Shown here piece by piece: positions 24,240 to 59,265 of a DNA stretch of 64,000 nucleotides; within the stretch, counting starts at the first letter, position 1, and every line of letters begins with the position of its first letter. The position numbers were made by a program, and so were the translations under genes. The notes below the pieces were generated by a model. It saw only the letters and a program-made list of their open reading frames with translations. It did not search any database and was not told the DNA's origin. Source of the DNA: Toxorhynchites rutilus septentrionalis (taxonomy: Eukaryota; Arthropoda; Insecta; Diptera; Culicidae); contig NC_073745.1 in assembly GCF_029784135.1 (NCBI RefSeq), positions 276,916,706 to 276,980,705 of the forward strand, in the 5' to 3' direction.

Positions 24240-25455
24240 TTTTTTGGTGTTTAAAATTGTGGATTTTGTGCTTACGCACTGCGATCTGCTGATATCATTA
24301 TCCGAAGTGGAATTATATATGATGAAAACCGCCCTCCGCCGCCCTGGACGAGATGGATCCTGTATTATGTATGGATGAAATAAAGAAAAAACTCCTCAAT
24401 ATCATATAAAATAATTATCATTATCGAACACAGTTATCAATTTTTCTCACCAGAAAAAAACATGTTACTTTATTCTAGACAAAACACATTTAAAATGGGA
24501 AAGGTAATTTTCTTTTATAATTTTTACTTTCTGAGTGTTTATTCAACCCATTTCCACTTCCGCTTTAAACCCAACGGAACACATATATGCCTCAATGCGA
24601 ATTTCAGTTGGACTAACAGCACCTAATACGACAAGTAGAGCATATGGGAAATCAGTTTTCCAAATATTCTTCCATTTTTAAAATTTTTCTCGTCACATGA
24701 GCTTTCCTTTGGTGAAAATGAACGCAACAAAACAGACAGCATAAACCAGACGAACCGTTCTCGAGTGGGAACACACATTGGTTTTTATTTATGAAAATTG
24801 AAATGAATTGTTTCATATTTCATGTAACTCTAACACATCCGCTACAAAATACAATTTTTTCACTTACACTTGTACTAAGTATTTCACAATGCTTGATCGG
24901 TCATTGATGTGAAATTTTTCGAGAATTAAAGTTCAAAATTTAAATTTTATTTGCTCGGATTAATCGTATCAATGCCGATTTCCCCCAGGCACCTCTGTTT
25001 TGAAATCTCTGTTAGGAAACACATTTTGGTGGGAACAAAAGCTTCCCCTGCTTTCATGTATTTGCAATACCGATTTCTCCAGACACCTTGGGTTTGAAGT
25101 CTGTACTTTCATAAAATATTAAATTTTATTCATTTTTACTGTAATGAATTGTTATGGAGTGCTCAATTGACGCAAAATTCTCGTAAATTTATCAGAAAAT
25201 GACTGACTTAAAATTGTGAGTGCAAAAGGAAGCTTGTATCTTCAATTTCAACCAATCAACACCAGGTATTGCCTATCGGATAACGGTTGAGATTTTTGAA
25301 CTCTTCGATAGTTAGTTTCATGACATATATTATTTTATTCAATTAAAAAATTGTTTTGTAGTGCCGAAATCGATTGACGCAAAAATCTCATCAATCCATC
25401 ATGAAATGATTGAGCAATAAGCGTTTGAAATTTAACTGAAAATTGTAAAAAGCTT
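24240..25455 (+). mobile_element. TGA-C element, copy 1 (both termini missing)
   Basis: The body follows the full-length copy at 55973-57156: CCTGGACGAGATGG, TGTATGGATGAAATAAAG, CATGTTACTTTA, TTGGACTAACAGCACCTAA, the TTTATTTATGAAAATTG stretch, two units of the 85-95 bp repeat (about 24.98-25.09 kb), and 'CATCATGAAATGATTGAGC' near the 3' side. The hairpin and palindrome ends are missing. No coding. Confidence 0.7.
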
Positions 25456-25461
25456 CTCGAA

Positions 25462-25843
25462 TTGAACCAATGGTCGAGATCCATGGTTCTGTACTCTCAT
25501 TACATTTCTCAAGAAATAAAACCTTCAGCAGAAATCTTCAAAAATGATAGCTTCCCGAACTTCAGCAGATCTTCTGTTGATTTGGATCTTTCTATGAAGG
25601 AAGCAATTCGAGATATTTCAGATCATCTTCGATCGTCGACAATACCTTTTATTCTCGCTTCAAAATACAACCATATCAATTCTTCAGGAATGTTTTAACT
25701 GATGGTTCAAGAATCAACGGATCTACTGGTTTTGGTATCTTTAATCACATAAACTTGAAGGCCCTCGTTCAGTGTATGTTACCAAACTGGCTGCAATATA
25801 TCATGGAAATAATACCATTGAGTCCTTACCACCTGATCACTAT
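25462..25843 (+). pseudogene. LINE ORF2 fragment, RNase H domain (5' part)
   Basis: The frame at 25462-25698 continues into VLTDGSRINGSTGFGIFN (about 25.69-25.74 kb). After a frameshift it reads VYVTKLAAIYHGNNTIESL and PPDHY. The DGS and the ELAAI-like motif are those of the RNase H domain of I-/Jockey-group non-LTR retrotransposons, which removes RNA during target-primed reverse transcription. The domain is cut at 25843 by a TGA-E insertion and resumes at 27405. Confidence 0.7.
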
Positions 25844-27404
25844 TGACGTAGGACTACGTCTTTAATTTCTATACCGGGGTGTAAAATAAAAGTTTCGAAA
25901 ACGAAAGCGTTACGCCGGAGACCGAGATTTTGAGCGTTAATAGCTCCTAAACAGCTGAACGAAATGGTATGATTAACACTTCATTCGAAAGATAAAATGT
26001 CTACGCGTTATATACTTGTTACTTTTTGATCCAAAAACTTGTTTCAATAGTCTTAAAATTGCTTTCCAAACAGGCTAATGAAATCACCAATCGGTATATA
26101 AGCGAGCGCCACTCGGAAATTCACTCAGTTATAATTGAACAGTGATTGGAGCATGTTGTCGCTGTTGTGGTGAAGCTCTTCGTTTATCATGAAAGCGCGG
26201 ATGAACGGTGTCACCAAGAGCCTATTTGTGCACCTTAGGCCGAAAGGGAATCCATCAGGAGGAGAGTGATGCCACAAACGGTTCCGCTTGAAACATCGGA
26301 GCAGCCAACACACACACATACACGCGCGGAACTATTTTCGTTTGGATGCCATTCAGCATCGAGAAATTTCAGGAAAGATGCAATCGTTGTTGAAAAATAA
26401 TCTGCCAGTTCCCCTGAGAACTGAAAAATACATTCATGCGAAAGAGTTCATTTTAATGTTTTCTATCCATGTAACACTGCGACCAAATATTTTTCAATTA
26501 AGTGCTATTAACAGGTGGTTATTGAGTTAGCATTAACCACTGGTGGGCTTCGAGTATCGAGGAAAATCAGGAAAGAACTAATCGTTGCTGAAAAATACTC
26601 TGTCAGTTCCCCTGGGAATTTAAAAATACATTGATGAGAAAGAGTTTATTCTAATGTTTTCTATCCATATAACAATGCAACCAAATACATTTGGTTTTGT
26701 GATTTTTCAATTGATCGCAATTTACAGGAATGCTTCTGAAAATTATTCTTTTTCGGCGAGGAATCAAGGGATCGAGGGATTCATCACCTAGCCTGACCTG
26801 ACCTGAAAGACATGCAGTTTGTTTGGAACTGTGAGGGAGGGCAGAAAAGCCAGGAGGCAGGTGGCAGGAGAAGAAGAGAAGGTGACCAAGAGAGTATCAG
26901 CACCGAAAAACGGTTCCGATTGAGACATCAGAGCAGCCACCACACACACATACACGCGCGGAACTATTTTTGTTTGGTTGCCATCCAGCATCGAGAAGAT
27001 TCCGGAAAGATATTATCGTTGCTGAAAAATAATCTGCCAGATCCCTTGGGAATTGAAAATTACATTCAAGCGAAAGAGTTTATTTTAACGTTTTCTATCC
27101 ATATAATACTGCGACCAAATACAATTGATTTTGTGGTTTTTCAATCATGTGCAATTAACAGGTGGTTAACCACTGGTGATGGACTTCGAGAAGAATCCGG
27201 AAAGATATCGCTGCTGCAAAATAATCTGACAGTTCCTCTTGGCATTGAAAATAACATGCAAGCGAAAGAGCTCTCGTTTTCGAAGTGCCTCAAATATTCA
27301 TTCAGAATGGATTCAGATTCAACTTCAAACAAATGATCACTGAATCAACGATAGTCCTACGTCACCATTGCAGTTATACCATAGATATAACCCACTTCCT
27401 GTTT
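25844..27404 (-). mobile_element. TGA-E element, copy 4, inserted in LINE RNase H
   Basis: Minus orientation: TGACGTAGGACTACGTC at the left (palindrome 25845-25860), hairpin end ...CCACTTCCTGTTT at the right. The LINE reading frame is readable on both sides (GATCACTAT | TTTATTTTCTCG), which fixes the insertion point and shows no target duplication. It is the longest E copy because it has four internal modules (near 26395, 26590, 27023, 27215). Confidence 0.85.
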
Positions 27405-27520
27405 TTTATTTTCTCGAATAGTCTTAACAGTATACAAGCCATTTAATCCTTGAAACAAAAGATGAAAGCATCGTATTTTCTTATCAAAAGCCACTCACCA
27501 GTTGGCAAAACCAATGGAAC
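27405..27520 (+). pseudogene. LINE RNase H domain, continuation
   Basis: Directly after the TGA-E insertion the frame reads FIFSNSLNSIQAI, equivalent to the conserved DSLSAIQAI-like stretch of LINE RNase H, then a stop and SLKQ. It joins PPDHY at 25843 in frame. The catalytic-type aspartate appears changed to N. Downstream similarity fades. Confidence 0.65.
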
Positions 27521-28911: not shown

Positions 28912-28913
28912 TA

Positions 28914-30163
28914 AAGGGTGTGTCACATCAAATTGCATCACGGAAAAAACGCTGTAGAAATTCGCCCAGTAGACCGATCCTTTTGAAAATTTTAGACATT
29001 AAAATAAAAACTATTAAACAACTTTTGGCATTTTCTTTTTATTCATACTTCGAGCCCAAGCCCGTATGCTCGCACCTTCCTCTTTACCCCGTCCATAAGG
29101 TTCTGTACAACGTCAGGTTGTAGTTTTTTTTTGAACAGAAATCCATTTTCTCTTGAAGTCCGCCCCCGATTTGACAACTTTTAGGTTCTACCGGAGGGCC
29201 TGCGGGTTCATTTCCTTTGGCACGAAGGTGACCCCGTTGGCTTCGTACCACTCCAACACGTCCTTTGAATAGTGGCACGAAGCGAGATCCGGCCAGAAGA
29301 TGGTCGGGCCCTCGTGCTGCTTCAGTAGTGGTAGTAAGCGCTTCTGTAGACACTCCTTAAGGTAAACCTGCCCGTTTACCGTGCCGGTCATCACGAAGGG
29401 GGGCGCTCCGCTTTCCGCAAGAGCAGATCGCTTGCCACACCATGTACTTTTTTGGCAAACTTGGATAGTTTCTGCTTGCGAATCTCCTCCGGAACGCTGA
29501 ATTTGTCCTCTGCGGAGAAGAACAACAGGCCCGGCAGCTGACGAAAGTCCGCTTTGACGTAGGTTTCGTCGTCCATTACCAGGCAATGCGGCTTCGTCAG
29601 CATTTCGGTGTACAGCTTCCGGGCTCGCGTCTTCCCCACCATGTTTTGCCTTTCGTCGCGGTTAGGAGCCTCCTGAACCTTGTATGTACGTAGGCCCTCC
29701 CGCTGCTTGGTCCGCTGGACGAATGAACTTGACAAATTCAGCTTGTTGGCGACATCTCGGACCGAACTTCTCGGATCACGTCTAAACTACTTAAATACGC
29801 TCTAGTGATCTTTTTCACTGACGGAGCATCCATTTTTGCCGTTCTTCACCTTCCGGTCGATGGTTAGGTTCTCGAAGTATCGTTTTAGTACTCTGCTGAC
29901 CGTAGATTGGACGATTCCCAGCATCTTACCGATGTCCCGATGTGACAACTCCGGATTCTCGAAATGAGTGCACAGGATTAATTCACGACGCTCTTTTTCG
30001 TTCGACGACATTTTTCCAAATTTACGAAAAATTGACAGTGAAGCATGGCCAACGTGATCTATACACTCTTATCTGATTATAAGCGAAAGCTGAAGATATA
30101 ATTCCTAAAAATGAAATTTCTACAGCGTTTTTTCCGTGATGCAATTTGATGTGACACACCCTT
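28914..30163 (-). mobile_element. DD37E Tc1/mariner transposon, copy 1
   Basis: The 49-bp terminal inverted repeats start AAGGGTGTGTCACATCAAAT and are identical at the two ends. They are flanked by the TA target duplication (28912-28913, 30164-30165). At 1250 bp the length suits the group. It carries a broken transposase gene on the minus strand. The second copy at 36786-38044 is nearly identical outside a few indels, so both are fairly young. Confidence 0.93.
29043..30011 (-). pseudogene. DD37E transposase, broken (copy 1)
   Basis: This was a cut-and-paste transposase. It starts MSSNEKERRELILCTHFENP with an N-terminal helix-turn-helix (SHRDIGKMLGIVQSTVSRVL) and a second one (VRDVANKLNLSSSFVQ). 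The first catalytic D is in VMDDETYVKADF and the second in FWPDLASCHYSKDV. Lesions: a stop after SEKDH near 29802, a frameshift near 29400, and a deletion of about 50 bases near 29190 that removes the PELRPIEKYW segment with the third catalytic residue. It cannot make active enzyme. Confidence 0.9.
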
Positions 30164-30339
30164 TATCTAGGGAATAAAACATTTCAAATGCAGTATTAAA
30201 AGATCTTACATAAAAGTTGAGTTCAGTATGAAAAACTTTTTTCTAACATTTCACGAACATGATTTTAATTATATTAAATTGGTTGTATCTCGAGAACGGT
30301 CACTCACTATTTGTAAGCAAAGTAAATCGGATTATCATC

Positions 30340-34656: not shown

Positions 34657-36432
34657 AGTTTACAATAAAAGTCTCAACCGAATTTTGGGATTTGGTCTTC
34701 TATTGGTGAGTGCAGGGCACATAAACTGGTCCACACATTGACCACGGTATGCTGTGAATTGGACGAAGGACAAGGGATCTAAACTTAACGATCACGAAAT
34801 CAAACGCTTGCGTTAGGGAACATGAGAAAGCAAATGGAGAACGGTTGAGTGCATGTCCACCGCGGGTGATGCAGATGCAAATAGTGCATAATATTAATAA
34901 ACGCATCACTGAATGTGACGCCAGGGAACGGAACGGCCGGCGGTGCGGAGAGCTATTCCGCCGTATCACGACAACGGTTTTGGATGATGATGGTGACGGC
35001 GCGGAATAGTCCAATCACGATGCGTTGTTGTAGATTCTACACCCGTGTGTGGGTATAGTGGAGGTGGATGGGATCCAGCGCGGGGGCAGACATATTTGCA
35101 TTGCTAGGCTCGTGCGCGCCACGGTGAGTATTTCAGTGGAACGGTTCTTCCATCGCGGGACCTGCAGCCGTATGCTAACGCTGGTGCTGTCGTGGAAAGC
35201 TGACGTACGATTTATAAACAAGAATAAAACCGTTTTATTAATTATAATAATAACCGTGCTGACATTGACAATGATTTCTCCGTTACGCGTGTCAGTGCCA
35301 GTCAGCGTGGGTGTGTAAACGCTGTGTGCGCTGTAATCCTGGGGGCCCATAGGGATTAACACGCAATACGCGTAGCAGGAGATAAATGCGGATAATTGAT
35401 TTTTCCGTAAACCCGGTATGTTCATGAATTTAGAAGTAAAGTCTAAATCTAATCTGTTCTCTGCAACATTTTGCGTCGTTATTTGTTTTTCGTTTTTCCT
35501 AAACTCAAACGGTTTTGAAAGACCAGCCGTGGGAAAAGGCCATCAAAAGAACAACTTTTCAAGTGTCCCCCTTTTTTGTTGGAGGTTCATGTATAAGTTG
35601 TGGGATTTGTCGTTATCCTCGTTATTGTCGTTGGTTGGGTGAAAAACTTTTTTTTTGCTGTTCCTCACGCTGCTAGACGGAAAGGAACTCGACGTCTCGA
35701 CGAATTTATTTCGATTCCTGCCCTTCTGTGCGGGAACATACAATGTAAACCCTTCTCAGAGGAGACCACAATCGAAACTGCTTCACTCCAACGCGAGTAT
35801 AGGCGAATATGGATGAAAGCTATGATACTTGATTATGTATGCTTGTTTTCTTTTTTTATGGAAAGCAGCCAGAAGAATTATGTGTTCAGACGGGGAAAGT
35901 TTTATTTTCAACGATTTCTCCATTCTTCCGCGTGCTTTATTCGCTCTCTTTCAGGCATCGGTCATTTACGACAGGGATTTTCCGCTTTCCAGCAGCAAGT
36001 TCCGTTCGGTATATATGAATGTTGATTTGGTAATCTTTTTTCTACAATTCGGTGAAAGTTTTCGGGATGAGTGACTTTGCAGGCCTTAGCGCGAATAGGC
36101 TCACGTGTGACCCAAAGTTTGTTTATTCATCATTTGGATAAGGTCTAAAGGGGCATAATAATACTTGGTGACCTGTTTTCGTATTCGAAAACTAATGCTA
36201 TGAATATTTGTATTGCAGCACGCGATGCGACAGAAAAAAGTTTAAGATATAGATCATTCATAAATATGATAGAATCAAATGCGCGTATTTCTGCAGTCAT
36301 CTTGTTTATAGTGGTTTCCTGATCCATCTCTGAAAATATACTGAATAATTCGTTTCAACTGTATCCATAACGCATTTTAACGTCATTTTTTGAAATGCAT
36401 TAATTAAAAATGATCGTTACCAATAAAAAGAC
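34657..36432. other. Low-repeat, more GC-balanced region; no gene identified
   Basis: No mobile-element ends were recognised. Overlapping open frames on both strands (34700-35425 minus, 35600-36074 plus) have no recognisable domains. Together with 2.9-5.7 kb and 49.0-49.9 kb, this is a candidate for unique host DNA. Confidence 0.4.
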
Positions 36433-36785
36433 ACAGGAGGGTTGTGTCTGACACACGACCGCATAGTTGACGTAGGATTCCGTTAGGCTATCTCTTGATT
36501 TTGGAAATGTTTGATGAATTACATCGTTGAACTCTTTGATAATGATTTGATGGCCTCCTGAGAAGGACTGTTTTGTTTGGTTGTTGGGTATTGTTTGTTC
36601 ACTCCACCAGTGTTTACCGAGTGATGATGACAGAAGGATGGTAAACAGTCGTTGGATGGTGCGTACCAGATAAAAGATAATGAAGTGGAACGTGATATGA
36701 TTAAAACCACCCTCTGTGATTCTAGACGATGCCTTCTGTGATATGTATGGATTAAATAAAGAATAATAAACTCACTAATGTAATA
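36433..36785 (+). mobile_element. TGA-C element, copy 2 (5' part)
   Basis: It starts ACAGGAGGGTTGTGTCTGAC, with hairpin arms GGTTGTGTC/CACACGACC, then TTGACGTAGGATTCCG. Continuing to TGTATGGATTAAATAAAG it follows copy 4. It is interrupted at a TA by the DD37E transposon and resumes at 38045. A decayed histone-type stem-loop is near 36550. Confidence 0.75.
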
Positions 36786-38044
36786 AAGGGTGTGTCACAT
36801 CAAATTGCATCACGGAAAAAACGCTGTAGAAATTCGCCCAGTAGACCGATCCTTTTGAAAATTTTAGACAGTAAAATAAAAACTATTAAACAACTTTTGG
36901 CATTTTCTTTTTAATCATACTTCGAGCCCAAGCCCGTATGCACGCACCTTCCTCTTCACCCCGTCCATAAGGTTCTGTACAACGTCAGGTTGAAGTTTTT
37001 TTTGAACAGAAATCCATTTTCTCTTGAAGTCCGCCTCCGATTTGACAACTTTTGGGTTCTTCCGGAGGGCCTGCTTCATAATCGCCCAATATTTCTCTAT
37101 TGGGCGAAGCTCCGGCGCGTTGGGCGGGTTCATTTCCTTTGGCACGAAGGTGACCCCGTTGGCTTCGTACCACTCCAACACGTCCTTTGAATAGTGGCAC
37201 GAAGCGAGATCCGGCCAGAAGATGGTCGGGCCCTCGTGCTGCTTCAATAGTGGTAGTAAGCGCTTCTGTAGGCACTCCTTAAGGTAAACCTGCCCGTTTA
37301 CCGTGCCGGTCATCACGAAGGGAGCGCTCCGCTTTCCGCAAGAGCAGATCGCTTGCCACACCATGTAGTTTTTGGCAAACTTGGATAGTTTCTGCTTGCG
37401 AATCTCCTCCGGAACGCTGAATTTGTCCTCTGCGGAGAAGAACAACAGGCCCGGCAGCTGACGAAAGTCGCTTTGACGTAGGTTTCATCGTCCATTACCA
37501 GGCAATGCGGCTTCCCCACCATGTTTTGCCTTTCGTAGCGGTTAGGAGCCTTCTGAACCTTGTATGTACGCAGGCCCTCCCGCTGCTTAGTCCGCTGGAC
37601 GAATGAACTTGACAAATTCAGCTTATTGGCGACATCCCGGACCGAACTTCTCGGATCACGTCTAAACTGCTTAACTACGCGCTTGTGATCTTTTTCACTG
37701 ACGGAGCATCCATTTTTGCCGTTCTTCACCTTCCGGTCGATGGTTAGGTTCTCGAAGTATCGTTTTAGTACTCTGCTGACCGTGGATTGGAAGATTCCCA
37801 GCATCTTACCGATTTCCCGATGTGACAACTCCGGATTCTCGAAATGAGTGCGCAGGATTAATTCACGACGCTCTTTTTCGTTCGACGACATTTTTCCAAA
37901 TTTACGAAAAATTGACAGTGAAGCATGGCCAACGTGATCTATACACTCTTATCTGATTATAAAACCAAAGCTGAAGATATAATTCCTAAAAATTAAATTT
38001 CTACAGCGTTTTTTCCGTGATGCAATTTGATGTGACACACCCTT
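36786..38044 (-). mobile_element. DD37E Tc1/mariner transposon, copy 2
   Basis: It has 49-bp perfect terminal inverted repeats identical to copy 1 and a TA duplication (36784-36785, 38045-38046). It is inserted in a TGA-C element whose sequence reads through on both sides. Length is 1259 bp. Confidence 0.94.
36915..37891 (-). pseudogene. DD37E transposase, nearly intact (copy 2)
   Basis: The same protein as at 29043-30011 but better preserved. Both helix-turn-helix regions are present, with first D in VMDDETYVKA and second D in FWPDLASCHYS. The E of PELRPIEKYW follows after exactly 37 residues, which defines the DD37E group. Two lesions: an in-frame 39-base deletion (13 codons, between NMVGK and PHCLV), and loss of one C near 37469 that shifts the frame after ETYVKA. 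The C-terminus VRAYGLGLEV is intact. Not functional as it stands. Confidence 0.92.
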
Positions 38045-38158
38045 TATAACATGATTACCAATACCGAACAAAATTATCATTTTTTCTCATCAGTAAAAAC
38101 ATGTTACTTTAACATAGAGAAAACATATTTGAAATGGAAAAGGTATTTTTTTATATTT
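38045..38158 (+). mobile_element. TGA-C element, copy 2 (continuation)
   Basis: Reads ACCGAACAAAATTATCA, CATCAGTAAAAACATGTTAC as in other TGA-C copies, then is interrupted by TGA-D in a run of T (TATATTT|TGACG). Confidence 0.7.
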
Positions 38159-38573
38159 TGACGTAGGACTACGTCTAACCGGAAGATATAGGGGGTGAAA
38201 AGGAAATCTAGGCACTGAACAAGTAGGAAAAAAATGCAAGATTTGGAACGCTTATAACTCGAGCATTTCTCAATAGATCGCAAAGGTTTTTGCATCAATT
38301 GATAGGAAATATATCTACGCATCTATCATAACGAATAACATTTCATTTTTCTTGAGATAAATAATTGAATAATTGTGAAATATCAAGCATTGTCAAAATG
38401 CACTATGTGCCCATTTTTGATTGGTCCATTTTGTGCTCCTCAAATCGTACCGACCAAAACGGGCAACCAGAGCAGCAGCGAATTAGAATGAAGCACGATT
38501 GGAAAGGAAAAAGAAAAAAATGAACGAAACATTGGTCGCAGTCTCACACATGCGTAATTCTCGAGCCAGCCAG

Positions 38574-38609
38574 TCAGCTTAAAAATCCCCGCTCCCTGTC
38601 GTAACGATC
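38574..38609 (+). promoter_or_regulatory. H2A promoter-like segment (CCAAT and TATA-like)
   Basis: CAGCTTAAAAATCCCCGCTC is a TATA-like box. GATTGGTCC near 38420 and ACATTGGTCG near 38530 are CCAAT-like boxes. All lie upstream of the H2A start at 38893 on the same strand. A SINE-like insert (38610-38813) separates this from the leader. Activity is inference. Confidence 0.45.
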
Positions 38610-38813
38610 CATTTTTTGTGTGGACACCGACTGGACAACATCGTTGCTGGACGGGCTGGACGGCGAGGGATCGAGTGCCTTTCTCAAGGCAAGAGTGCGG
38701 AGGTGGTAGCGCTGGAGTAGAATAGAGTAGAGTTTTCAAAGGGCCTTTCTCAAGGCTAGAGACGAATGAGCTGCAAAAGTTTAAAGTCTCTATAATACAA
38801 TACCTTCCTTCCT
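38610..38813 (-). mobile_element. SINE-like retroposon, 204 nt, 11-bp TSD
   Basis: It is flanked by TCGTAACGATC at 38599-38609 and 38814-38824. The other TGA-D copy (54607-54615) has a single uninterrupted site. It matches the insert at 2321-2508 in the opposite orientation, with GCCTTTCTCAAGGC hairpins and CGAGGGATCGAGTG. Confidence 0.72.
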
Positions 38814-38892
38814 TCGTAACGATCATTCTCATTCAAACCGTACACCACATCGGTTCGCATCACAACACATCAACAAACCAACCCAAGCAGCC

Positions 38893-39350
38893 ATGTCTGG
38901 ACATGGTTAAGGAGGAAAAGTGAAGGGAAAGGCAAAATCCCGCTCGAACCGTGTTGATCTGGAGTTCCCCGCAAGGGTAGCTAGGCCGAGCGCGTTAGTA
39001 CCAGTGCACCAGTCCACCTAGCCGGCGTTATATAGTTTCGGCCGCCGAAGTGATCGAGTTAGCTGGCAAAGCTGCTCGCGACGATAAGAAAACCCGCATT
39101 CGGAACAGAACACATTCGGTTCGCGGACATCAAGACAACAGGCAGTTGCAGCGAGTGGCGAGTGGCAAATGCAATCGCAAAACGACATCAGGTAGCCGAA
39201 GAAAAAAGTTTGTTCTTTATACAAACTGCTTTGGTGGCAAATCCAGAACAAGGCGGCATCGAGGGCGTTCGAAATGGTGTTTTTCAAAACCACGAGTACT
39301 AAGTTTTCTAAATTGGAACCATTCCATAAAACAAGGCGCTTTTCAGGGCC
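38893..39350 (+). pseudogene. Histone H2A pseudogene 1, inside TGA-D
   Basis: Canonical H2A forms the H2A-H2B dimer of the nucleosome. Here ATG at 38893 gives MSGHG, a stop, then GGKVKGKAKSRSNR, matching the H2A N-terminus. AERVSTSAPVHLAGVI corresponds to AERVGAGAPVYLAAVM, and after a one-base shift EVIELAGKAARDDKKTRI corresponds to EVLELAGNAARDNKKTRI. Part of the RIHRLL region is deleted and the C-terminal third is hard to align. The leader ACAAACCAACCCAAGCAGCC precedes the ATG and a histone stem-loop ends it (39335-39350). It therefore looks like a DNA-level capture of a replication-dependent, intronless H2A gene. Multiple stops make it non-functional. Confidence 0.9.
39335..39350 (+). promoter_or_regulatory. 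Histone 3' stem-loop of H2A pseudogene 1
   Basis: GGCGCTTTTCAGGGCC has one mismatched stem pair. It is preceded by ACAA and followed by ATTAAA. It matches the histone mRNA 3' processing stem-loop in loop sequence (TTTC) and stem length (6). Confidence 0.8.
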
Positions 39351-39925
39351 ATTAAACCTTCCAAAAAAGAGTTTAGGAAATACAGTTCAACGCTTTCTAA
39401 AACAATATCCAAAATAATAATAAAACACAAATAGATTTTTTCATAATTTGTTTGCCAGGATATGATGAGTATGTGAATTTGGCAGTTGTTCTGAGCTTAT
39501 TGATTTTCACCAATTCTTAAATTGCTTCTAGATTGAAAGTACAGTAATTTACACTTATCTCGACATTTAGCTAATTGGACGGACCTGTAATGCGAGATAT
39601 TTTGTTGAACATTTTTGTAAACATAGAGTTCGGGGTCCAAATTATGACCCCACATTGAAAGTCGACACTGTACCACTGTCATCGCAAATGTTCAATTACA
39701 GGTTAAAATTACCTCCAATCCGACACTGAGTGGTGGTAATGCGACGTGCCATTGAATGTAATTTACTGTAAAATATGTCACAAGCTGGATGGGAAGAAAT
39801 TTTCCAACTGTGAAAGCTGTGGCGAGTGGCAAATGCAATCGCTAAACAGAAAGGTTTAGCCGAACAAGATGGGGATATCGAGTGATAACAAAACAATAAA
39901 CTCTTTAGATTGAAGATAATTTTGT

Positions 39926-39941
39926 GATCCTGAAAAGGACC
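39926..39941 (-). promoter_or_regulatory. Histone-type stem-loop, opposite strand
   Basis: On the minus strand this reads GGTCCTTTTCAGGATC, close to the histone stem-loop consensus but opposite to the H2A copies in the same element. It may mark a second captured histone 3' end. Confidence 0.5.
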
Positions 39942-40097
39942 CTTTTTAGCCTGCATGTGAATCCAACGAGCGAACAAATCGTGATGAATGTATTTTTTTG
40001 CCATCGCTCCCTTTTAACGCTCATTCGTTCGTCTCGTTGGACTTGCCCCTCTGGCTGAGTCTGCCGATTTGTCTCTATCCTGTGAGTGTGTACCGCT

Positions 40098-40110
40098 AGA
40101 GTATAAAACA
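40098..40110 (+). promoter_or_regulatory. TATA box upstream of H2A pseudogene 2
   Basis: GAGTATAAAACACG lies about 78 bases before the H2A-like start at 40177, a plausible distance for a histone promoter and leader. Confidence 0.5.
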
Positions 40111-40176
40111 CGTGGACCCCAAAAAATATCTTATTTTCTTCCAAACCGTAAACCCGTGTGGTTGTACGGCATCGGC

Positions 40177-40663
40177 ATCGTGGACGTAACAAAGGAGGAC
40201 AAGTTAAGGGAAAGGCAAAGTCTCACTCGAACCGTGCAGGTCTCCAGTTCCCTGTTGGTCGCATTCACTGATTGTTCCGCAAGGGTAACTAGGCCGAACG
40301 GATTGGTGCCGGAGCACCAGTATACCTAACAGCGATTATAGAGTTTCGGTCGTCGGAGTGCTCGAGTTGGCTTGCAAAGCTGCTCACGACAATCAGAAAA
40401 CCCGCATCAAGAACAGAGCAGCTTCGGTTCGGCGCTCATCAAGGTAACAGTTAGTTTCAGTGAGTGGCAAAGTGTTTCTCCGGCACGTCGCATTGAATGG
40501 AATTTACTGAACAACATGTCACAAGCTGGATGGGAAGAAATTTTCCAACTGTGAAAGCTGTGGCGAGTGGCAAACGCAATAGCTAAACAGGAAGGTTTAA
40601 CCGAACAAGATGGGAATATCGAGTGATAACAAAAACACAACACCAAAGGTTCTTTTCAGAACC
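40177..40663 (+). pseudogene. Histone H2A pseudogene 2, inside TGA-D
   Basis: After a damaged start (ATC for ATG, two bases lost) the frame reads [30 protein letters not shown], stop, LFRKGN, stop, AERIGAGAPVYLTAIIEF. A shift follows, then a stretch equivalent to LAGNAARDNKKTRI. This is closer to canonical H2A than copy 1, and its RIHRLL region is present. The two stops are consistent with CGA to TGA and TAC to TAG single changes. The 3' part is diverged, but the element ends in a perfect histone stem-loop. An upstream TATAAAA is at 40101. Confidence 0.9.
40648..40663 (+). promoter_or_regulatory. Histone 3' stem-loop of H2A pseudogene 2 (perfect)
   Basis: GGTTCTTTTCAGAACC: perfect 6-bp stem and TTTC loop, preceded by ACCAAA and followed by ATCA, exactly the metazoan histone 3' end pattern. 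Confidence 0.88.
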
Positions 40664-40843
40664 ATCAACATATTCATAAAGAGTAAACAGTAAACTAATC
40701 CATTTTTCAGATAGATTGGTAGGTATTCACGTAGGAGAAGAAAATAAAACAATATATTTAAAATATATATTTAACAAAAGCTGTCCCCTTTGTATAGTCC
40801 TACGTCACTCCGGTTATGTCCCCGACATTACCCACCCGTCTTT

Positions 40844-43324: not shown

Positions 43325-46300
43325 GAAATCCTGGTGTGAATGGTATTGTCTGCTCTTATCAAAATTTAGGAGGCATGAATACTAATGTTGTGCTCCCTTG
43401 GCCGAGTGGTTAGCGTCATAACTAACATGCATGGGTGTTCGGGTTCGATTCCCGTTCTGGTCGGGGGAATTTTTCGTCAAAGTAATTTCCTCCGACTTGC
43501 ACTGTGATCACGCGTATTCTAGAGCTTGCCACTCAGAATGCATTCAAGGCGTGTTATTTGGCATAGAAATCTCAACTAAGTACTAATAAAAATGACGCAA
43601 GTAATACTACGTTGAGACGGTGAAGTTCCTCTAGGAACGTTAGTGCCATTGAATAAGAAGAAGAAGAAGAAGAAGAATACTAATGTTACGAAATACTCTC
43701 TCGCGTGCTCGGATGCAGCGTATGACATTTTTGGTTTTACGGAGACTTGGCTCAATTGCAACGCACTCTCCTCACAAATATTTCGAAGTGCTTAAACGGT
43801 CTTCTGCTCCGACCTCTCAAGTCTTACCAGTACCAAAAGAACTGGTGGAGGTGTGCTTCTGGCTACTCGTTCCAGCTATAAATGCCGTTTGTTGCAGCCT
43901 CCAAACTGTACTGCAGTCGAACAGTTATGGGCAGAACTTGCTGTCCCCAGCTAAATGCTATTCATCTGCGTCATATACGTCCCCCCTGATCGCGTCAATG
44001 ACACAACTCTGGTGTCACACCACTGCGAATCATTAGAATGGATTACCTCACGTATGACTTTATCGGACAAGATACTCATTATGGGTGACTTCAACATGCG
44101 TTCTATCAGCAGGCCCCAAGGTACTTCGGGCTATCTCTATCCCAACCTTGCTCGCTCATCGATGAATCCCGTTCAAAAACAGCTTTTGGATGACTACAGC
44201 ACCGCAGGGCTCGTCCAACTCAACTCGGTTCACAACTCTAACGGTCGCCTTCTCGATCTCTGCTTTGTCAGGCGAGAACTCTCTAATGACACAACTGTAT
44301 CGAGTGCCCCTGCCCCGCTAGTAAGGGACTGCCAGCATCATCCGACTCTCAACCTGTTCATAAACGAATGTGTTCCGTCTGAATTCACCTCAACAGCGGA
44401 AATAACCTGTTTTAACTTTAAGAAAACGGACTTCAACAGAATGAAACATTTTCTGTCCTCTGTCAACTGGAATGACTTGCTACGCGACCTGTCCGTTGAA
44501 GCATCGGTTGATATTTTCACTTCCGTCTTAATCTACGCAATTGGCCAAGCTAGTTAGTAGAAGACCACTATATCCTCCCTGGTCAAATGCCACTCTCAAA
44601 CGTCTCAAGTCGATTAAAAGATCAGCCCTCAAAAAACTGTCGCGAAATCAAAATGCCTATGGACGGTCATATTACATCGCTTGTAACAACAGATACAAAC
44701 GGCTCAATAAAAAGCTGTTCACTTCATATTTGTACGGGATACAACGGAGCCTCACACTCAACCCTCGGAAATTTTGGTCTTATATCGACGAACAACGGAA
44801 GGAGGTAGGTCTTCTTGTGTCCATGAGTCTGGGCAGAAAGGATGCTGCTTCTCTCTCATCGATTGGTGACCTCTTCAGGGAACAATTTTCAGCTGTGTTC
44901 ACAAATGAAATGCTTGATCCACAACAGGTGTCTGAAGCAGCAGTCAACGTACCACTTCGCCCAGCCATCGGCCCACATCCACAGATGTCGCTTAACAATA
45001 TTGAATCCAGTTGCGCTCGTTTGAAATGTTCAACAAATCCAGGTCCAAATGGTATACCATCTATTGTTTTAAAAAGGTGTTGCTCTGCAATTTCCCAACC
45101 TTTGGCAACTATTTTCAATCGCTCTCTGTCGACAGGAACATTCCCGAGTATGTGGAAGAAATCTTTCGTCACATTTAGGTGATAAACGTGAGATTTCCAA
45201 CTATAGAGGAATCGCTGCTTTGTGTGCCACGTCAAAGCTATTTGAACTAGTTGTTTTGGACTTTCTCATACATAACTGTCTAAGCTACGTGTCTGAAACT
45301 CAACATGGGTTTATGCCCAAAAGATCCACTTGCACCAATCTCACCTACACAAGGTTAACCAACACGGTGGTTAACATACAATATATAAGTATTTCCCAAC
45401 ATTCTGCATCATCAAAACCATTGAAGATCGCAAACAGGTCGATGGTCTACACCGAATTTTCAGCTGCCTTCGATAAACTGAATCATGAAATCATGATAGC
45501 GAAACTCGAACGTCTCGGTTGCTCTAGTACTCTACTCAGCTGGCTCAATTCCTACCTGGTTGGTCGCTCAATGTCTGTCAAGATCGGTGACACTATATCG
45601 GAACCATTCTCAGTCACATCGGGTGTTCCACAGGGCAGCCATATCGGACCTTTCCTATTTTTACTATACCTGAATGATGTGAACCTTACACTTAAATGTT
45701 TCAAGCTCTAATACGCCGACGATTTTAAACTTTAATGCGTAATAACCTGTCCAGAAGAGGCACTTTATCTTCAACACGAACTTAATATTTTCTCCGAATG
45801 GTGCTCAACTAATCGGATGAGTTTGACGCTCCCCATATTACCTCAGTTATACCATCGCCAATACGTCTCTCAAACGTGAAACCATCGTTAAGGATTTGGG
45901 TATTCTCCTAGATGCACGCCTAACCTTCAAAGATCACGTAGGTTATATAACCACTAAAGCCTCAAGAAGTCTTGGGGCTTCATCTTTCGTGCTGCAAGAC
46001 AATTCACTGATGACCACTGCCTGAAGATTTTGTATTGCTTGTTGGTTCGATCCTCACTGGAGAATGCAGCAGTTGTATGGGCACCACATTACCAAAACGG
46101 TATACAACAAATAAAGGCCATTCAACGCAAGTTTATCCGCTTTGCTCTCAGACGTTTGCCTTGGAACGATCCTTTCAATCTCCCACGATATGAGGATCGT
46201 TGCCAGTTAATCGATCTGGATCTTCTTTTGAATCGAAGAAATGTTGCCAAGGCTTGCTTTGTGTCTGATATGTTGCAATTCCACATCGACTGTTCTGCTT

Positions 46301-47399: not shown

Positions 47400-49000
47400 C
47401 GTATAAAACTTAGTCAAAAAAAATCTTCGTCATATAATTAAAAAAAAATCGTTCGACTGTTAATAAAACACAGTGTGAAATACTGTTACTCCTCAATTCT
47501 GTAAGTGTTGTTGCGCTTTTAATATGTCTTGGCATCGAGGTGGAAACATTTATTCCTTTGTAGTACAACGAATTTTGTGAAGCACGTGACAATAAATTTG
47601 GTGTTCTTAATTCATTCGCGTTTCTAGTGTTATATCTATGCAAATCACTTCCTCTTTCAACTCGATCACACAAGTATCGAGGCAGCAAACCTTTAACTAC
47701 ATTAAAAATGAACACCATAGTTAAATAAACAATTCTTTGCTTCACGGATAACCATTTTAGAGCGTCCAGCATCAAAGATGAGGAAGTAAGTCTATTACAT
47801 TTTAGAAATAACCGCATTATTTTATTCTGCAAACGCTGTAATCTCGATATTTGTGTATAATTGGCTAAAAATAATATGAACAAGAACAAAAGTCTAAATG
47901 AGGAGAGATGATTAATTTGTATAGCTGTATTTTGCTGCACATAGTTAAATCGTTTTTCAATCGGCATGAGATTCCATACTTCATGGCAATTTTCTTGATA
48001 CATTGTCAATGTGAGTATTGAACTTGAGTTTGTCATCAATAATCACGCCAAGATATTTAATCTCCCGAACGCGATCAATGGTCTCATCATCAATTACAAT
48101 AGAGACGTTTTCGTTAGATCGATTTCGCGAGATTACCATAATTTTAGTTTTATTTATATTCAACTTCAATCGCTTATACTTCAACCATCTACTTAAAGAA
48201 CGCAAATCTCCATTAAAATGAAAAACGACCTGATTCAAATCATTAGCTGCAATGAATAACACAGTATCATCTGCAAAAAGGTTAATATCACAAAATTGTA
48301 AAACCCGTCGCATGTCGTTGATGTACATAATAAATAAAAGGGACCCTAATACACTTCCCGGAGGTGCTCCAAGATTATTCCTCACGGGACTGGAAATTGA
48401 ATCATTAAAAATAGTCCGTTGAGTTTTGTCATACAAATAACTTTCAAACCATTTATATGCAGTACTTGTAATTCCAAAGCACTTAATCGTATTCAACAAC
48501 AAGGGCCTAGAAATTGTCTCGAAAGCGCGTTTCAGATCCAAGAAAACAGCAATGATGGTATCTTTACATTCTAATTTCTCTTTCCCTTTTGCTAACACCA
48601 AGTTCAATGCGGTTTCACAGGAATGTCCTTCCCGATATCCCGATTGTTATGGTATTAGCAAAGCGTTCATATTTAATTATTCTAACAGCTGGTCTTTAAC
48701 AACTACTTCCAATATTTTCTCTAATGTATGCAACATGTTGATGGGACGAAACTCTTCGGCTTTAATCGTTCCAGCAACCTTTTGAATAGGAACTATGAAA
48801 TCCACACCATCCACACCTGAGGCACATGCCCAGTTAAGAAAGACTTATTAATGAGGTCCAGCAAGATGTGATCAATGACATGAAAGTAATCTTGAATAAC
48901 TCTAGCATTGACATTATTCCCTTCAGTCGTTTTTCCTAAAGAAAAGCAATTGCATGTAGATTCTATTTTTAGATTCTTTTTTGGCAAAGTATTGCAATTT
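47400..49000 (-). pseudogene. LINE 2: reverse transcriptase, 5'-truncated
   Basis: Minus strand from about 48987: IDHILLDLINKSFLTGHVPQ, then VDFIVPIQKVAGT, EEFRPINMLHTLEKILE, then after two stops SCETALNLVLAKG. The frame 48607-47981 holds IAVFLDLKRAFETISRPLLL, GAPPGSVLGSLLFIMYINDM, NLFADDTVLF and YLGVIIDDKLKF. These are RT domains 0 to 7 of a CR1/L2-group non-LTR element, with FADD as catalytic box. The 48039-47410 frame is the C-terminal region (YNTRNANELRTPNL, YYKGINVSTSMPRHIK). Endonuclease and ORF1 are missing, as in most 5'-truncated LINEs. Confidence 0.85.
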
Positions 49001-52598: not shown

Positions 52599-53404
52599 TG
52601 ACGTAGGATTACGTCTTCCGGGAACATATTGGGGTACAAATTGAAAATCGAAAATCGAGTACATCCTGAAAATTTTCCAATTTCAAACGCTTATTGCTCA
52701 GTCATTTCATGATGGATTGATGAAATTTTTGCGTCAATCGATTTCGGCAGTTCATAACCATTTTTTATATTGAAGAAAATTATATATGTCATGAAACTAA
52801 CTATCGAACAATTGAAAAATCTCAACCTCTATCCTAACGGAAATACCCACTTCTGATTGGTCGAAATTGACGACACATGCGGCGGGACCCTAACAGAGAC
52901 ATCAAAACCAAGCTGCCTGGGGGAATTCGGCATTGCAAATACATAAAAGTAGGGGGAGCTTTTGCTCCCACCGGAATGTGCTCCCTAACAGAGACATCAA
53001 AACTAAGCTACCTGGGGGAAATAAACATTGCAAATATATGACGGTAATAATACTATGATAATGATACTATTAATTCTAGCAAATAAAATTTAAATTTGGA
53101 AATTTAATGTTGGTTGCTTCGTGAAATTTCATATCAATGACCGATCGTGTATTGTGAAAAATTTAGCACAAGTGTAAGTGTAAAATTGTATATGGTAGCA
53201 GTTGTTTTAAAAATGACTCGATATATGAAACGATTTATTTCAATGTTCATAAATAAACACACCAAGGTTTGTTCCCGCTCAAGAACGGGTCGTTTGGTTT
53301 AAGCTCTCTGTTTTGTTGTGTTCATTTTCACCCAAGGAAAGTTATACGGCGAGAAAAATTGGAAAAGTTAAGAAATATTAGAAAAAGTGATTACGTTAAA
53401 AAAA
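52599..53404 (-). mobile_element. TGA-C element, copy 3 (palindrome half)
   Basis: Minus orientation: TGACGTAGGATTACGTC, TTCCGGGAACATATTGGGG, two 85-95 bp repeat units (52.90-53.04 kb), TTGTTCCCGCTCAAGAACGG. It is interrupted by TGA-D copy 2 and continues at 55059. Confidence 0.78.
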
Positions 53405-53581
53405 GACGGGTGGGTAATGTCGGGGACATAACCGGAGTGACGTAGGACTATACAAAGAGGACAGCTTTTGTTAAATATATATTTTAAATTTATTGTTTTA
53501 TTTTCTTCTCCTACGTGAATACCTACCTATCTACCTGAAAAATGGATTAGTTTACTGTTTACTCTTTATGAACATGTTGAT

Positions 53582-53597
53582 GGTTCTGAAAAGGACC
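53582..53597 (-). promoter_or_regulatory. Histone 3' stem-loop
   Basis: Minus strand GGTCCTTTTCAGAACC, the counterpart of 40648-40663 in TGA-D copy 1, about 180 bases from the hairpin end of the element. Confidence 0.75.
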
Positions 53598-54079
53598 TTT
53601 GGTGTTGTGTTTTTGTTATCACTCGATATTCCTATCTTGTTCGGTTAAACCTTCCTGTTTAGCTATTGCGTTTGCCACTCGCCACAGCTTTCACAGTTGG
53701 AAAATTTCTTCCCATCCAGCTTTGTGACATGTTGTACAGTAAATTACATTCAATGCGACGTGCCGAAGCGCCACTCAGTGTCGCATTGGAGGCGATTTTA
53801 ACCTGTAATTGGACATTTACGATGACAGTGGTACAGTGTCGACTTTCAATGCAATGTCCAATTACCTAAATGTCGAACTAATAGTAAATTACTGTACTTT
53901 CAATAATCAGGAAAGTCCCCAACTATCAATAAGCTCAGAACAACTGCCAAATTCACATACTCATCAGATCCTGGCAAACAAATTATGAAAAAATGAATTT
54001 GTGTTTTATTATTATTTTGGATAATGTTTTAGAAAGCATTGAACTTTATTTCCTAAACTCTTTTTTGGGAAGGTTTAAT

Positions 54080-54095
54080 GGCCCTGAAAAGCGCC
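54080..54095 (-). promoter_or_regulatory. Histone 3' stem-loop of H2A pseudogene 3
   Basis: Minus strand GGCGCTTTTCAGGGCC, identical to 39335-39350. Confidence 0.8.
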
Positions 54096-54538
54096 TTGTT
54101 TTATGGAATGGTTCCAATTTAGAAAACTTAGTACTCGTGGTTTTGAAAAAAAAACATTTCGAACGCCCTCGATGCCGCCTTGTTCTGGATTTGCCACCAA
54201 AGCAGTTTGTATAAAGAACCAACTTTTTTCTTCTGCTACCTGATGCCGTTTTGCGATTGCGTTTGCCACTCGCCACTCGCTGAAGCTGCCTGTTGTCTTG
54301 ATGTCCACCGAACCGAAGTGTTCTGTTCCGAATGCGGGTTTTCTTATCGTCGCGAGCAGCTTTGCCAGCTAACTCGATCACTTCGGTGGCCGAAACTATA
54401 TAACGCCGGCTAGGTGGACTGGTGCACTGGTACTAACGCGCTCGGCCTAGCTACCCTTGCGGGGAACTCCAGATCAACACAGTTCGAGCGGGATTTTGCC
54501 TTTCCCTTCACTTTTCCTCCTTTGCCATATCCAACCAT
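54080..54538 (-). pseudogene. Histone H2A pseudogene 3, inside TGA-D
   Basis: Minus strand ATG at 54538: MVGYGKGGKVKGKAKSRSN, CVDLEFP, with no stop in this N-terminal part, unlike copy 1. After the same internal deletion as copy 1 the matched sections reappear in other frames, including VIELAGKAARDDKKTRIRN (near 54.38-54.33 kb). It ends in a stem-loop at 54080-54095. Shared deletion with 38893-39350 shows both descend from one captured gene. The leader CCAACCCAAGCAGCC precedes the ATG. Confidence 0.88.
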
Positions 54539-55058
54539 GGCTGCTTGGGTTGGTTTGTTGATGTGTTGTGATACGAACCGATGTGGTGTACGGTTTGAAT
54601 GAGAATGATCGTTACGGCAGCGGAGCGGGGATTTTTAAGCTGACTGGCTGGCTCGAGAATTACGCATGTGTGAGACTGCGACCAATGTTTCGCTCATTTT
54701 TTTTCTTTTTTCTTTCCAATCGTGCTTCATCCTATTTCGCTGCTGTTCTGGTTGCCCGTTTTGTTCGGTACGATTTGAGGAGCATAAAATGGACCAATCA
54801 AAAATGGGCACATAGTGCATTTTGACAATGCTTGATATTTCACAATTATTCAATTATTTATCTCAAGAAAAATGAAATGTTATTCGTTATGATAGATGCG
54901 TAGATATATTTCCTATCAATTGATGCAAAAACCTTTGCGATCTATTGAGAAATGCTCGAGTTATAAGCGTTCCAAATCTTGCATTTTTTCCTACTTGTGC
55001 AGTGCCTAGATTTCCATTTCACCCCCTATATCTTCCGGTTAGACGTAGTCCTACGTCA

Positions 55059-55412
55059 AAAGTAGTATCAGGTGTTGTTAGTCCAATTAAAATTCGGATT
55101 GAGTTGAATAAACACTCAGAAAGTAAAAATTATAAAATAAAATAACCTTTTCCATTTCAAATATGTTTTCTCTATATTAACGTATCATGTTTTTTCTGAT
55201 GAGAAAAATTGATAATTGTATTCGGCATTGGTAATTATTTTATATTACATTGGTGAGTTTTTTTTAATTCATCCATTCATAACACAGGTGGTATCTCGTC
55301 TAGGATCACAGAGAGTAGTTTTCATCATATCTCGTTCCACTTCGGCATCTTTTATCTGATACGCACCATCCAACGAATGTTTACCATCGTTCTGTCATCA
55401 TCACTTGGCTTC
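55059..55412 (-). mobile_element. TGA-C element, copy 3 (hairpin half)
   Basis: After TGA-D the TGA-C body resumes: GGTGTTGTTAGTCCAATTAA, ACTCAGAAAGTAAAAATTAT, CTCGTCTAGGATCACAGAG, GATACGCACCATCCAACG. The hairpin terminus is missing. A short stretch (about 20 bases) was lost at the TGA-D junction. Confidence 0.7.
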
Positions 55413-55930
55413 CCTACCCATGTCGTCAATAACGAAAAACTTATCGGCGATCAATGAGGGGGAATGATTCAAAATCTCCGTGAACAAAGAAAAGAAGGAG
55501 AAGAAGATCGAATGAAGGGGACTATTTGCCTAGAGCATAAATATTGGATCTCGCTGAGGCAAATTTTCAGTATCGTTTTACATACGAAGCAATGAAAACC
55601 GCTTGTTCTTCCTTGTTTGGCCTTGTTTTCTTCTTCGTTTCGGATTGAGCTGTGGACGCGACCATATTACTTACTTGCTTACACAATTGTGTGGGGAATC
55701 ATCAAACTAGACTATCATCGGCTCACCAAGGAAATAATTGTTCAGGAATTTTGTGTGTGATTTGGTTTCGCATGACAGTAGCAAAACTATCTCTACCAAG
55801 GATGACAGCCAAACTAATCGAGACCGGAAATATTAACAGAAAGGGGGAAACTAATTAAAGGTGACTTGAACCAAATAACAGCGTAATTCTACGTCAACAA
55901 TGTGGTCGTGTCTTGAACACAAGCTTCTAT
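55413..55930 (-). mobile_element. TGA-B element, copy 3 (hairpin end)
   Basis: Resumes TGA-B with TTCTCCTTCTTTT-type sequence inverted, GATCTCGCTGAGGCAAATTTTC (the empty site for the SINE-like insert), CGTAATTCTACGTCAACA and the hairpin GGTCGTGTCTTGAACACAAG. It completes the element begun at 52457, with about 100 bases lost at the junction. Confidence 0.72.
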
Positions 55931-55972
55931 GATTTTTCAAGTAAGACTCAAGATTCTCAAATCAAAAAAGTT

Positions 55973-57156
55973 ACAGGAGGGTTGTGTCCAAGACACGACC
56001 GCATAGTTGACGTAGGATTCTGTTACGCTATCTACTGCATGCCTCTTTTGGATATGTTTGAAGAATTACATTGTTAAACTCTTCGATAATGATTTGGGTC
56101 CGTTCTGTCTGGTTGTTAGGTATGGTTTGTTCACTCCACCAGTGTCCATAACCGAGTGATGGTGATTGGTCATTAGATGGTGCGTATCATGTACCAAAGC
56201 CGCCCTCTGTGGTCCTGGACGAGATGACTCCTGTGTTATGTATGGATAAAATAAAGAAAAAAAAGCTCATCAATGTAATATAAGATAATTATCATCAGAC
56301 ATATACAATTATACATATTTAATTTTACAATTACAGTTGTGCTAAAAGTTCTACAATACATGATCGATCGTTGATATGAAATTTCACGAACCAATCAACA
56401 TAAAAGTTCTAAATTTAAATTTTATTTATATTCTATCAAGCATAAGTTCTATTCAGTTCATTGAAACATCATTCTTCAATCAAGCCATCGGAAGATCCTT
56501 ATTGGAACGAAAAAACACTTGCTCATCGCTCCCAACTTATTCGCCAGCACGTATGCAATCAGCAATGCCCACGCTAGTTACAATGAGCACTATCAATTTG
56601 TGCACGTCGTCTGTTAAACTAACGACCACGAGGGTATTTACATGCTGATTTCCCCCAGACACCTTGGATTAGAAATCTCTGTTAGGGAATACATGAAAAA
56701 AGCTGCCCCTACTTTTATGTATCTGCAATGTCGATTTCCCCCAGGCAGCTAGGTTTGATGTCTCTGTTGGGCAACACATTTCGATGAGAACAAAAGCTCC
56801 CCCTACTTTCATGTGTTTGCAATCCCGATTTCCCCCAGGAAGCTTGGTTTTGATTTCTCTGTTAGGGACCCGCCACATGTGTCGTCAATTTCGACCAATC
56901 AGAAGTGGGTATTTCCGTTAGGATAGAGGTTGAGATTTTTCAATTGTTCGATAGTTAGTTTCATGACATATATTGTTTTATTCAATGTAAAAAATTGTTA
57001 TGGAGTGCCGAAATTGATTGACGCAAAAATCTCATCAATCCATCATGAAATGACTGAGCAATATGCATTTGAAATTGGACAATTTTCACGGTGCGCTCGA
57101 TTTTCGATTTTCAATTTGTACCCCAATATGTTCACGAAAGACGTAATCCTACGTCA
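55973..57156 (+). mobile_element. TGA-C element, copy 4 (full length)
   Basis: This is the reference copy. It starts ACAGGAGGGTTGTGTCCAAG, hairpin arms GGTTGTGTC/GACACGACC, then TTGACGTAGGATTC. It ends TATGTTCACGAAA and GACGTAATCCTACGTC (57140-57155). Length is about 1.18 kb, with no coding capacity. An AATAAAG signal lies near 56250. Three units of the internal repeat are at 56647-56870. Confidence 0.82.
56647..56870 (+). repeat. Internal minisatellite of TGA-C, 85-95 bp x 2.6
   Basis: Units start GATTTCCCCCAGRCA at 56647, 56732 and 56827 and contain TCTCTGTTAGGGAA and CCCCTACTTTYATGT. The same unit occurs in the other TGA-C copies (19.2, 25.0, 52.9, 58.8, 62.3-62.9 and 63.8-64.0 kb) in varying number. 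Confidence 0.8.
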
Positions 57157-57970: not shown

Positions 57971-58487
57971 TATTTTTTAACGGTTTTAAAATGTTATTTT
58001 TTCTGAACAGTTTATTAATTTTGCAACAACTTTGTCTAACATCTTATTTTAATCAGACCTCTGGATTTTGAGTTACGATTTTTTTAAGGAAAGATCAGTG
58101 ATTGTGAATACGCCCTTTTAAAAAATCACTCATAATTTAAGTTGGTCGTACGATAATGAAAATTGATATTTTAGGTTTTGCTGTTTTTTGGCTGATTTGA
58201 AATGAAATTGCTCTAGTGCAGTATCTCAAAGCTTGTGAAGCGTGGATTCAAGAAAATGTTAGAAAAAATCATACCAGAGAAATATCATCCGGATAACAAA
58301 TTTTGTAAAATTGTGTTTGCGTCTTTGTCCAATATGCGATACGAATGCGATTCCTCTGACCGTTTGTCATACTTTTCTTAAAAGAAGATGTATCAATACC
58401 AAGTGATAAAGAACATTGCACTGAACGTAACGCTTTTGGCGCAGAAAATTGTGATGATTTCAGGACAATATATCAGTCAAGTTCTCT
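57971..58487. other. AT-rich spacer, nothing recognised
   Basis: No recognisable ends, RNA or coding. Confidence 0.35.
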
Positions 58488-59265
58488 TGACGTGGGACGA
58501 CGTCTAACCGAAATATATGGGGGATACAATAAAAACCTAAACACAGGACATAAAGGAAAAAATTAACATTACGAATGCTTATAACTCAGACATTTCTTAA
58601 TAGATCGGAAGGATGTTTGCATCAATTAATAGGAAATATTTCTACGCATCTATCACAATTAATAAAATGTTTTTTTTTTTCCTGAAATAAGCAATTGAAC
58701 AACTGTAGAAGGTTAAGCATTATCTAAATGCCCTAATTGCCTCGTTTTGATTGGCCCGATTTACGGTTTCCCCAACACAAACTTAAAAACCAAGGCTCCT
58801 GCGGAAATTGGTATTGCAAATACATGCAATCAGGCGAATGTTTTGTTTACACCGAAATGTGTTCCCTAACACAGTCATCAAAACCAAGTTGCCTGGGGAA
58901 GTTGGCATTGCAAATGCAGTAAAACACCGATTATCTGCAAGCGGATGATCCGCGATGCGATAATAAGTATTATCCAGAAACACAGTACGTAGAATTGAAG
59001 CTAAGATTCAATCGATCAAAGGATGGGACTATTGAAGAATATCACAAGAACATAAAATGTTATTGACAATCAAGATCGGCTAAGTTAAGTTAAGTTCCAA
59101 TCATTAAAAGATTCAAACTGCGAGAGCCAAATACGCGAATTACAAGAATGAAGTTTTTTTTTTCACGACCTGATACAACAGCCAACATCATTTTTCCTTT
59201 CATGTTCTATGTTTAGGTTTTCATTTTACCCTCCTTATACTCCGGTTAAACGTAGTCCCACGTCA
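58488..59265. mobile_element. Two TGA-D-like palindrome ends facing outward
   Basis: The left end TGACGTGGGACGACGTC plus TAACCGAAATATATGGGG and the right end (inverted) TGACGTGGGACTACG plus TTTAACCGGAGTATAAGG are two copies of the same terminus in opposite orientation. Both continue with 'AAAACCTAAACA'. The left arm resembles the TGA-D body for about 250 bases (TCTACGCATCTATCA). Between them are TGA-C minisatellite units (58.78-58.92 kb). No H2A is present here. Confidence 0.6.

Follow-up and report, generated by a model that had tools for sequence, protein, structure and literature searches.

Helentron-Cq-32A, an element of the mosquito Culex quinquefasciatus, carries fragments of the H4 superfamily together with H15 fragments. 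Eight copies have been reported, and the histone fragments contain stops and frameshifts (Thomas, Vadnagara and Pritham 2014, PMC4067079). The Helentron-Cq-32 family has identical subterminal inverted repeats (subTIRs) of at least 11 bp. The same paper sets out the anatomy of HINEs, which are non-autonomous and have their ends in common with autonomous Helentrons encoding Rep, helicase and endonuclease functions. HINE subTIRs are palindromic, 12-15 bp long, close to the end on the 5' side and subterminal on the 3' side; a further palindrome of 5-10 bp is found 8-35 bp from the 3' end, and insertion occurs at T-rich targets without target modification (PMC4067079). An initial annotation of the locus described here was aware of no family founded on a histone gene, a statement overtaken by the Culex element.

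The locus lies in a window of 64,000 nucleotides from Toxorhynchites rutilus septentrionalis, which contains two full copies of an element carrying sequence derived from histone H2A (Table 1). The limits first given for them, 38159-40843 and 53405-55058, did mark elements, the bodies of which have been corrected slightly. The reading favoured, at a probability of roughly 0.87, is that these are non-autonomous HINEs with dead H2A remnants, for whose movement an autonomous Helentron likely supplied the rolling-circle protein; no such Helentron was found in the window.

Table 1. Positions of the H2A-carrying elements, their parts and related elements, counted from the first letter of the 64-kb window.
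Feature	Position	Strand	Basis and remarks
HINE-like element, copy 1	38160-40840	+	self-BLAST boundaries, alignment with copy 2, border letters
5' palindromic subterminal repeat GACGTAGGACTACGTC	38160-38175	+	follows T-run
5' element body of copy 1	38160-38431	+	self-BLAST; 76% like 58487-58762
TATA-like TTAAAAAT, copy 1	38579-38586	+	upstream of relic A; read from sequence
SINE-like insertion, 205 bp	38610-38814		strand not assigned; absent from copy 2
Initiator-like TCATTC and H2A leader	38823-38892	+	read from sequence; conserved in copy 2
H2A relic A, copy 1	38893-39166	+	tblastn, frameshift-tolerant alignment; 3 stops, 4 frameshifts; residues 27-34 missing
Stem-loop of relic A, copy 1, with downstream purine-rich element	39330-39375	+	24.0 bits, below gathering score; one broken pair
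150-bp module	39744-39893, again at 40485-40634	+	92.7%; self-BLAST, alignment; possible H2A C-terminal relic, match not significant
Weak stem-loop-like site	39900-39946	-	opposite strand; 18.0 bits, E 2.3; doubtful
TATAAAA	40102-40108	+	upstream of relic B; read from sequence
H2A relic B, copy 1	40182-40408	+	tblastn, frameshift-tolerant alignment, PDB match; keeps 11-residue stretch
Stem-loop of relic B	40643-40687	+	RF00032, 41.0 bits, over gathering score; all pairs intact
3' subterminal inverted repeat TAGTCCTACGTC	40795-40806	+	34 nt before element end
3' hairpin GGTTATGTCCCCGACATTACC	40812-40832	+	8 nt before end; z -1.49 vs shuffles
S/W HINE hosting copy 2	52600-55935	+	53405-55057 inside; right end inferred, approximate
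HINE-like element, copy 2	53405-55057	-	self-BLAST boundaries, alignment with copy 1, border letters
B-type stem-loop kept in copy 2	53558-53602	-	29.5 bits, below gathering score; one broken pair
Stem-loop of relic A, copy 2	54055-54100	-	24.7 bits, below gathering score
H2A relic A, copy 2	54265-54538	-	tblastn, frameshift-tolerant alignment; 27-34 deletion as in copy 1
TATA-like box TTAAAAAT, copy 2	54631-54638	-	30 nt before TCATTC (54603-54608)
5'-end fragment of related HINE	58487-58763	+	self-BLAST
S/W-type HINEs	62861-63229, 36426-36785, 55966-57155
Histone 3' stem-loop in S/W family	62961-63007	-	36.9 bits, over gathering score
D family, HINE-like, four copies	about 8760-9809, 13669-15012, 16964-18071, 25843-27409

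The assignment rests on the element ends. The 16-nt palindrome at the 5' end is present in both copies (at 55042-55057 in copy 2). A 12-mer of it, GACGTAGGACTA, stands at the start of the element and recurs, inverted, as TAGTCCTACGTC 34 nt from the 3' end, where it is followed by the hairpin and then by Ts. Both copies are bordered at both sides by T-runs in element orientation, with four T before copy 1 and eight after it. Across the window there are 12 sites with the palindrome GACGTAGNNYTACGTC, counted as 22 strand hits, whereas 100 shuffles contain none; TTTT precedes it at ten of these sites, TT at one and a single T at one, again in element orientation. Copy 2 has a fold equivalent to the 3' hairpin of copy 1, and the four 3' hairpins that were folded, with z from -0.84 to -1.53, were matched by 16-41 of 200 shuffles, such that folding is only mildly better than in shuffled sequence. 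The fold predicted for 36420-36480, in an S copy, differed from the hairpin read by eye. Palindromic subTIRs, a 3' palindrome and a T-rich target without target duplication are thus all found here, the last with an uninterrupted site for copy 2 only. The ends match published HINE anatomy and support the rolling-circle type of carrier proposed in the initial annotation.

Other elements in the window have related ends. The 5' palindrome of the H2A element is present in all four copies of the D family and its 3' 12-mer in three of the four; in the fourth the 12-mer, at 14961, differs by one base. The D family has a 3' hairpin of its own, and the S/W family has a variant of the end layout. None of the 24 listed stop-to-stop open reading frames of at least 140 aa in the window gave a Pfam match to Rep or helicase at E 0.001, which indicates that the copies are non-autonomous, although a badly decayed Rep could have escaped detection. 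Scans for the element-end pattern gave no hits in viral contigs and none in bacterial or archaeal contigs.

Short inverted repeats are also a property of terminal-inverted-repeat DNA transposons, MITEs or Pack-TIR elements, and gene capture of the Pack type is known in animals (PMC8277862). A capture of this kind might also be read from the interval 58489-59264, a relative of the H2A element with two outward-facing 5'-type ends, an inverted pair that gives it a TIR-like look. In the H2A element, however, the repeat is terminal at the 5' end yet lies 34 nt inside at the 3' end and is followed by a hairpin, and the borders are T-runs on both sides. The insertion site of copy 2 bears on the same question. 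When its flanks are joined (660 nt), positions 1-657 align with 63073-63733 at 82.7%, and most of their length aligns with 61690-62266 at 79.2% and with 24302-24955 at 74.0%. No target duplication is seen at this uninterrupted paralogue; the alignment fails over around 15-20 nt at the junction, so that the site is to be regarded as near-empty rather than perfect. Pack-type capture is therefore considered very unlikely, and the HINE assignment is retained.

For copy 1 a clean empty site is lacking, as its right flank is another repeat. Its left flank is S/W sequence as at copy 2, ending about 69 bp away. A transposon with a DDE_3 domain, at 36784-38047, is inserted in the S/W HINE adjoining copy 1; a second copy, 90% alike, lies at 28912-30166, and both are Tc1/mariner-like.

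The two H2A-carrying copies could in principle be a single segmental duplication, possibly of sequence left over from the tandem histone array of the host. The H2A relics with their histone stem-loops would fit such an array, as would the weak stem-loop found once on the other strand. Against this, the flanks are HINE and other repeats, and tblastn searches of the 64-kb window gave nothing credible for H2B, H3 or H4 (best E 0.38); H1 gave nine matches at E of 10 or less (best 0.45), none of them in either H2A element. Divergence between the copies argues in the same direction. The element ends differ by K2P distances of 0.023 and 0.026 and the relic A block by 0.046, whereas the flank common to both copies differs by 0.123 over 106 sites (Fisher p 7e-5 for ends against flank); counts left out 39479-39743 and 39894-40484, which align poorly or have no counterpart. 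As the flanks are far more diverged than the elements, and the junctions in the host HINE lie some 69 bp apart, the copies do not represent one segmental duplication. The cargo is slightly more diverged than the ends (29/655 against 19/805 sites, p 0.04), and this difference is unexplained. A histone array and a segmental duplication were the two outcomes that the initial annotation had named as fatal to its reading; neither is borne out, and this explanation can be given next to no weight. What the copies have in common, namely their ends and the H2A deletion, instead bears out the earlier proposal that copy 2 holds a third H2A segment, spread with the element after capture.

The H2A segments, promoter-like boxes, leader and stem-loops previously noted in copy 1 are upheld by tblastn, by the Rfam model and by the sequence itself. 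Relic A of copy 1 is recovered by tblastn as three pieces (E 1.8e-16 for the set) and its counterpart in copy 2 by a match inside 54538-54265 (E 1.4e-15). Relic B gives a match at 40182-40358 (E 1.9e-26) with an extra segment at 40358-40408 (E 0.008), and a 24-aa piece of it matches H2A chains in the PDB, the best being 2pyo (E 2.7e-9). In frameshift-tolerant alignments, for which the reference was a fly H2A sequence, identity extended to 56 of 99 columns for relic A of copy 1, 57 of 108 for relic A of copy 2 (2 stops, 3 frameshifts) and 69 of 133 for relic B (3 stops, 3 frameshifts). None of the three has an open H2A reading frame and, with two to three stops and three to four frameshifts in each, they are relics and not genes; the description of the elements as carrying histone genes does not hold.

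Relics A and B are 76% alike over 238 sites. In relic A of both copies H2A residue 26 is joined to residue 35, which leaves a 25-nt gap relative to relic B. Both A and B have TAG at the position of H2A Y39 and a net deletion of 1 nt just before AAEV. As read from the alignment, they also have in common an M to I and an N to K change and a junction after KTRI; the two replacements are scored relative to fly H2A and could be native to the donor. No significant match to the H2A C-terminus came from the frameshift-tolerant search, in which 10, 4 and 6 of 40 shuffles did equally well, nor from tblastn restricted to this part, which placed 40518-40577 at E 23. That this last interval, within the second copy of the 150-bp module, is a decayed C-terminus is only a suggestion from the sequence.

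Upstream of relic A in copy 2, the TATA-like box precedes TCATTC at the normal TATA-to-start spacing. TCATTC is an arthropod start motif. In copy 1 the SINE-like insertion sits within the H2A promoter region and splits the box from this motif; it is flanked by a perfect 10-bp duplication, CGTAACGATC, at 38600-38609 and 38815-38824. A relative of part of this insertion is found at 2334-2510 on the minus strand. The 3' ends were scored with the histone 3' stem-loop model RF00032 (Rfam), the gathering score of which is 34. The stem-loop of relic B meets this threshold and so represents a replication-dependent histone 3' end, while three further loops of the two copies fall under it. The stem-loops are followed on the 3' side by AG-rich sequence, and such a stretch after the stem-loop resembles the histone downstream element.

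Histone genes are intronless, so the coding part alone does not discriminate between capture of DNA and the landing of a reverse-transcribed histone mRNA in the element. The sequences on either side do, with promoter-like boxes ahead of the start and a purine-rich stretch beyond the 3' side of the stem-loop. Both the TATA-like box and the purine-rich sequence are foreign to mature histone mRNA. Retroposition is thus a decidedly remote explanation, and capture of the histone at the DNA level, as the initial annotation had also supposed, is likely.

The stop, the 1-nt deletion and the KTRI junction common to A and B point to a single capture, dead by the time the two diverged. Capture and amplification of a complete H2A gene, as had been thought, is not supported, for the stop, the frameshift and the loss of the stretch after KTRI predate the A/B split. 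The course of events was probably as follows. A stretch of genomic DNA that comprised an H2A promoter and leader, the coding sequence, the stem-loop and the downstream element entered a HINE during rolling-circle replication, by template switching or by repair. The captured unit then lost function and was duplicated inside the element to give A and B, and the dead unit travelled as passenger DNA when the element was copied to two or more sites. The 150-bp module occurs twice in copy 1 and once in copy 2, and copy 2 retains both types of stem-loop. Copy 2 is therefore probably a deletion derivative of a form like copy 1, most of B having likely been lost when the two 150-bp direct repeats recombined with each other.

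A histone 3' stem-loop is also present in the S/W family. It is in sense orientation, near the 3' end of the element, and is intact in one of five aligned S sequences. It is degraded in the 36-kb copy; in the 56-kb copy the loop is lost and its flanks are kept, and the remaining two sequences do not extend over this position. Searches by tblastn gave no histone coding sequence next to the stem-loop. It is likely to be an independent capture of a histone 3' end by a second HINE family. The window also contains remains of non-LTR retrotransposons (43955-45711 on the plus strand and 47981-48646 on the minus strand), in which Pfam shows two reverse transcriptase domains and, under its cut-off, a match to an endonuclease. 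A protein search with reverse transcriptase sequence gave 130 matches; among the 120 that were listed, one named an animal, a beetle, at 32% identity.

The H2A segment, with its promoter-like and 3' processing sequences, joins the histones known in Helentron-type elements, and two histone-bearing HINE families in one window suggest that captures recur. An unlikely extension is that histone uptake by this lineage has been repeated, with the histone locus a preferred and useful donor rather than a random one. The reason proposed is that a promoter and a stem-loop would give the element or its partner transcripts in S phase, when rolling-circle replication can run. Were this so, H2A in the present family, the other histone 3' end in S/W elements and H4 and H1 in Culex would be instances of it. 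If copies are many, S-phase promoter-like sequences and histone-like RNA would be scattered through the genome. Histone H4 piRNAs whose function is unknown are reported from mosquitoes (PMC11286205); it may be speculated from this that element copies are a source of small RNAs matching histones.

Of the systems described in the accessible portions of PMC4067079, DINE-1/INE-1 of Drosophila has the same non-autonomous Helentron layout as the H2A element. Its subTIRs are not palindromic, however, and it has an inverted repeat and a core sequence that are not seen here. HINE-Mo of Metaseiulus occidentalis is similar in having palindromic subTIRs of 12-15 bp, 2-4 nt from the 5' end, a palindrome near the 3' end and insertions in T-rich sites. 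Its 3' subTIR lies some 38-60 nt from the end, so that the 34 nt plus Ts of the H2A element fall at the edge of this range, and those portions describe no host gene in HINE-Mo, whereas the H2A element carries remains of one. Helentron-Cq-32A, likened by its description, agrees in palindromic subTIRs, a 3' stem-loop, a T-rich target and broken histone fragments. It differs in its cargo, which is of the H4 superfamily and H15 rather than H2A, and the same portions do not describe capture of a histone promoter or 3' stem-loop, whereas promoter-like boxes and histone stem-loops are present here. Histone capture by a Helentron is already known in a mosquito. Among the titles and opening lines of abstracts that were searched, none showed a Helentron with H2A, and within that scope the new part is the H2A cargo with its promoter-like and 3' sequences.
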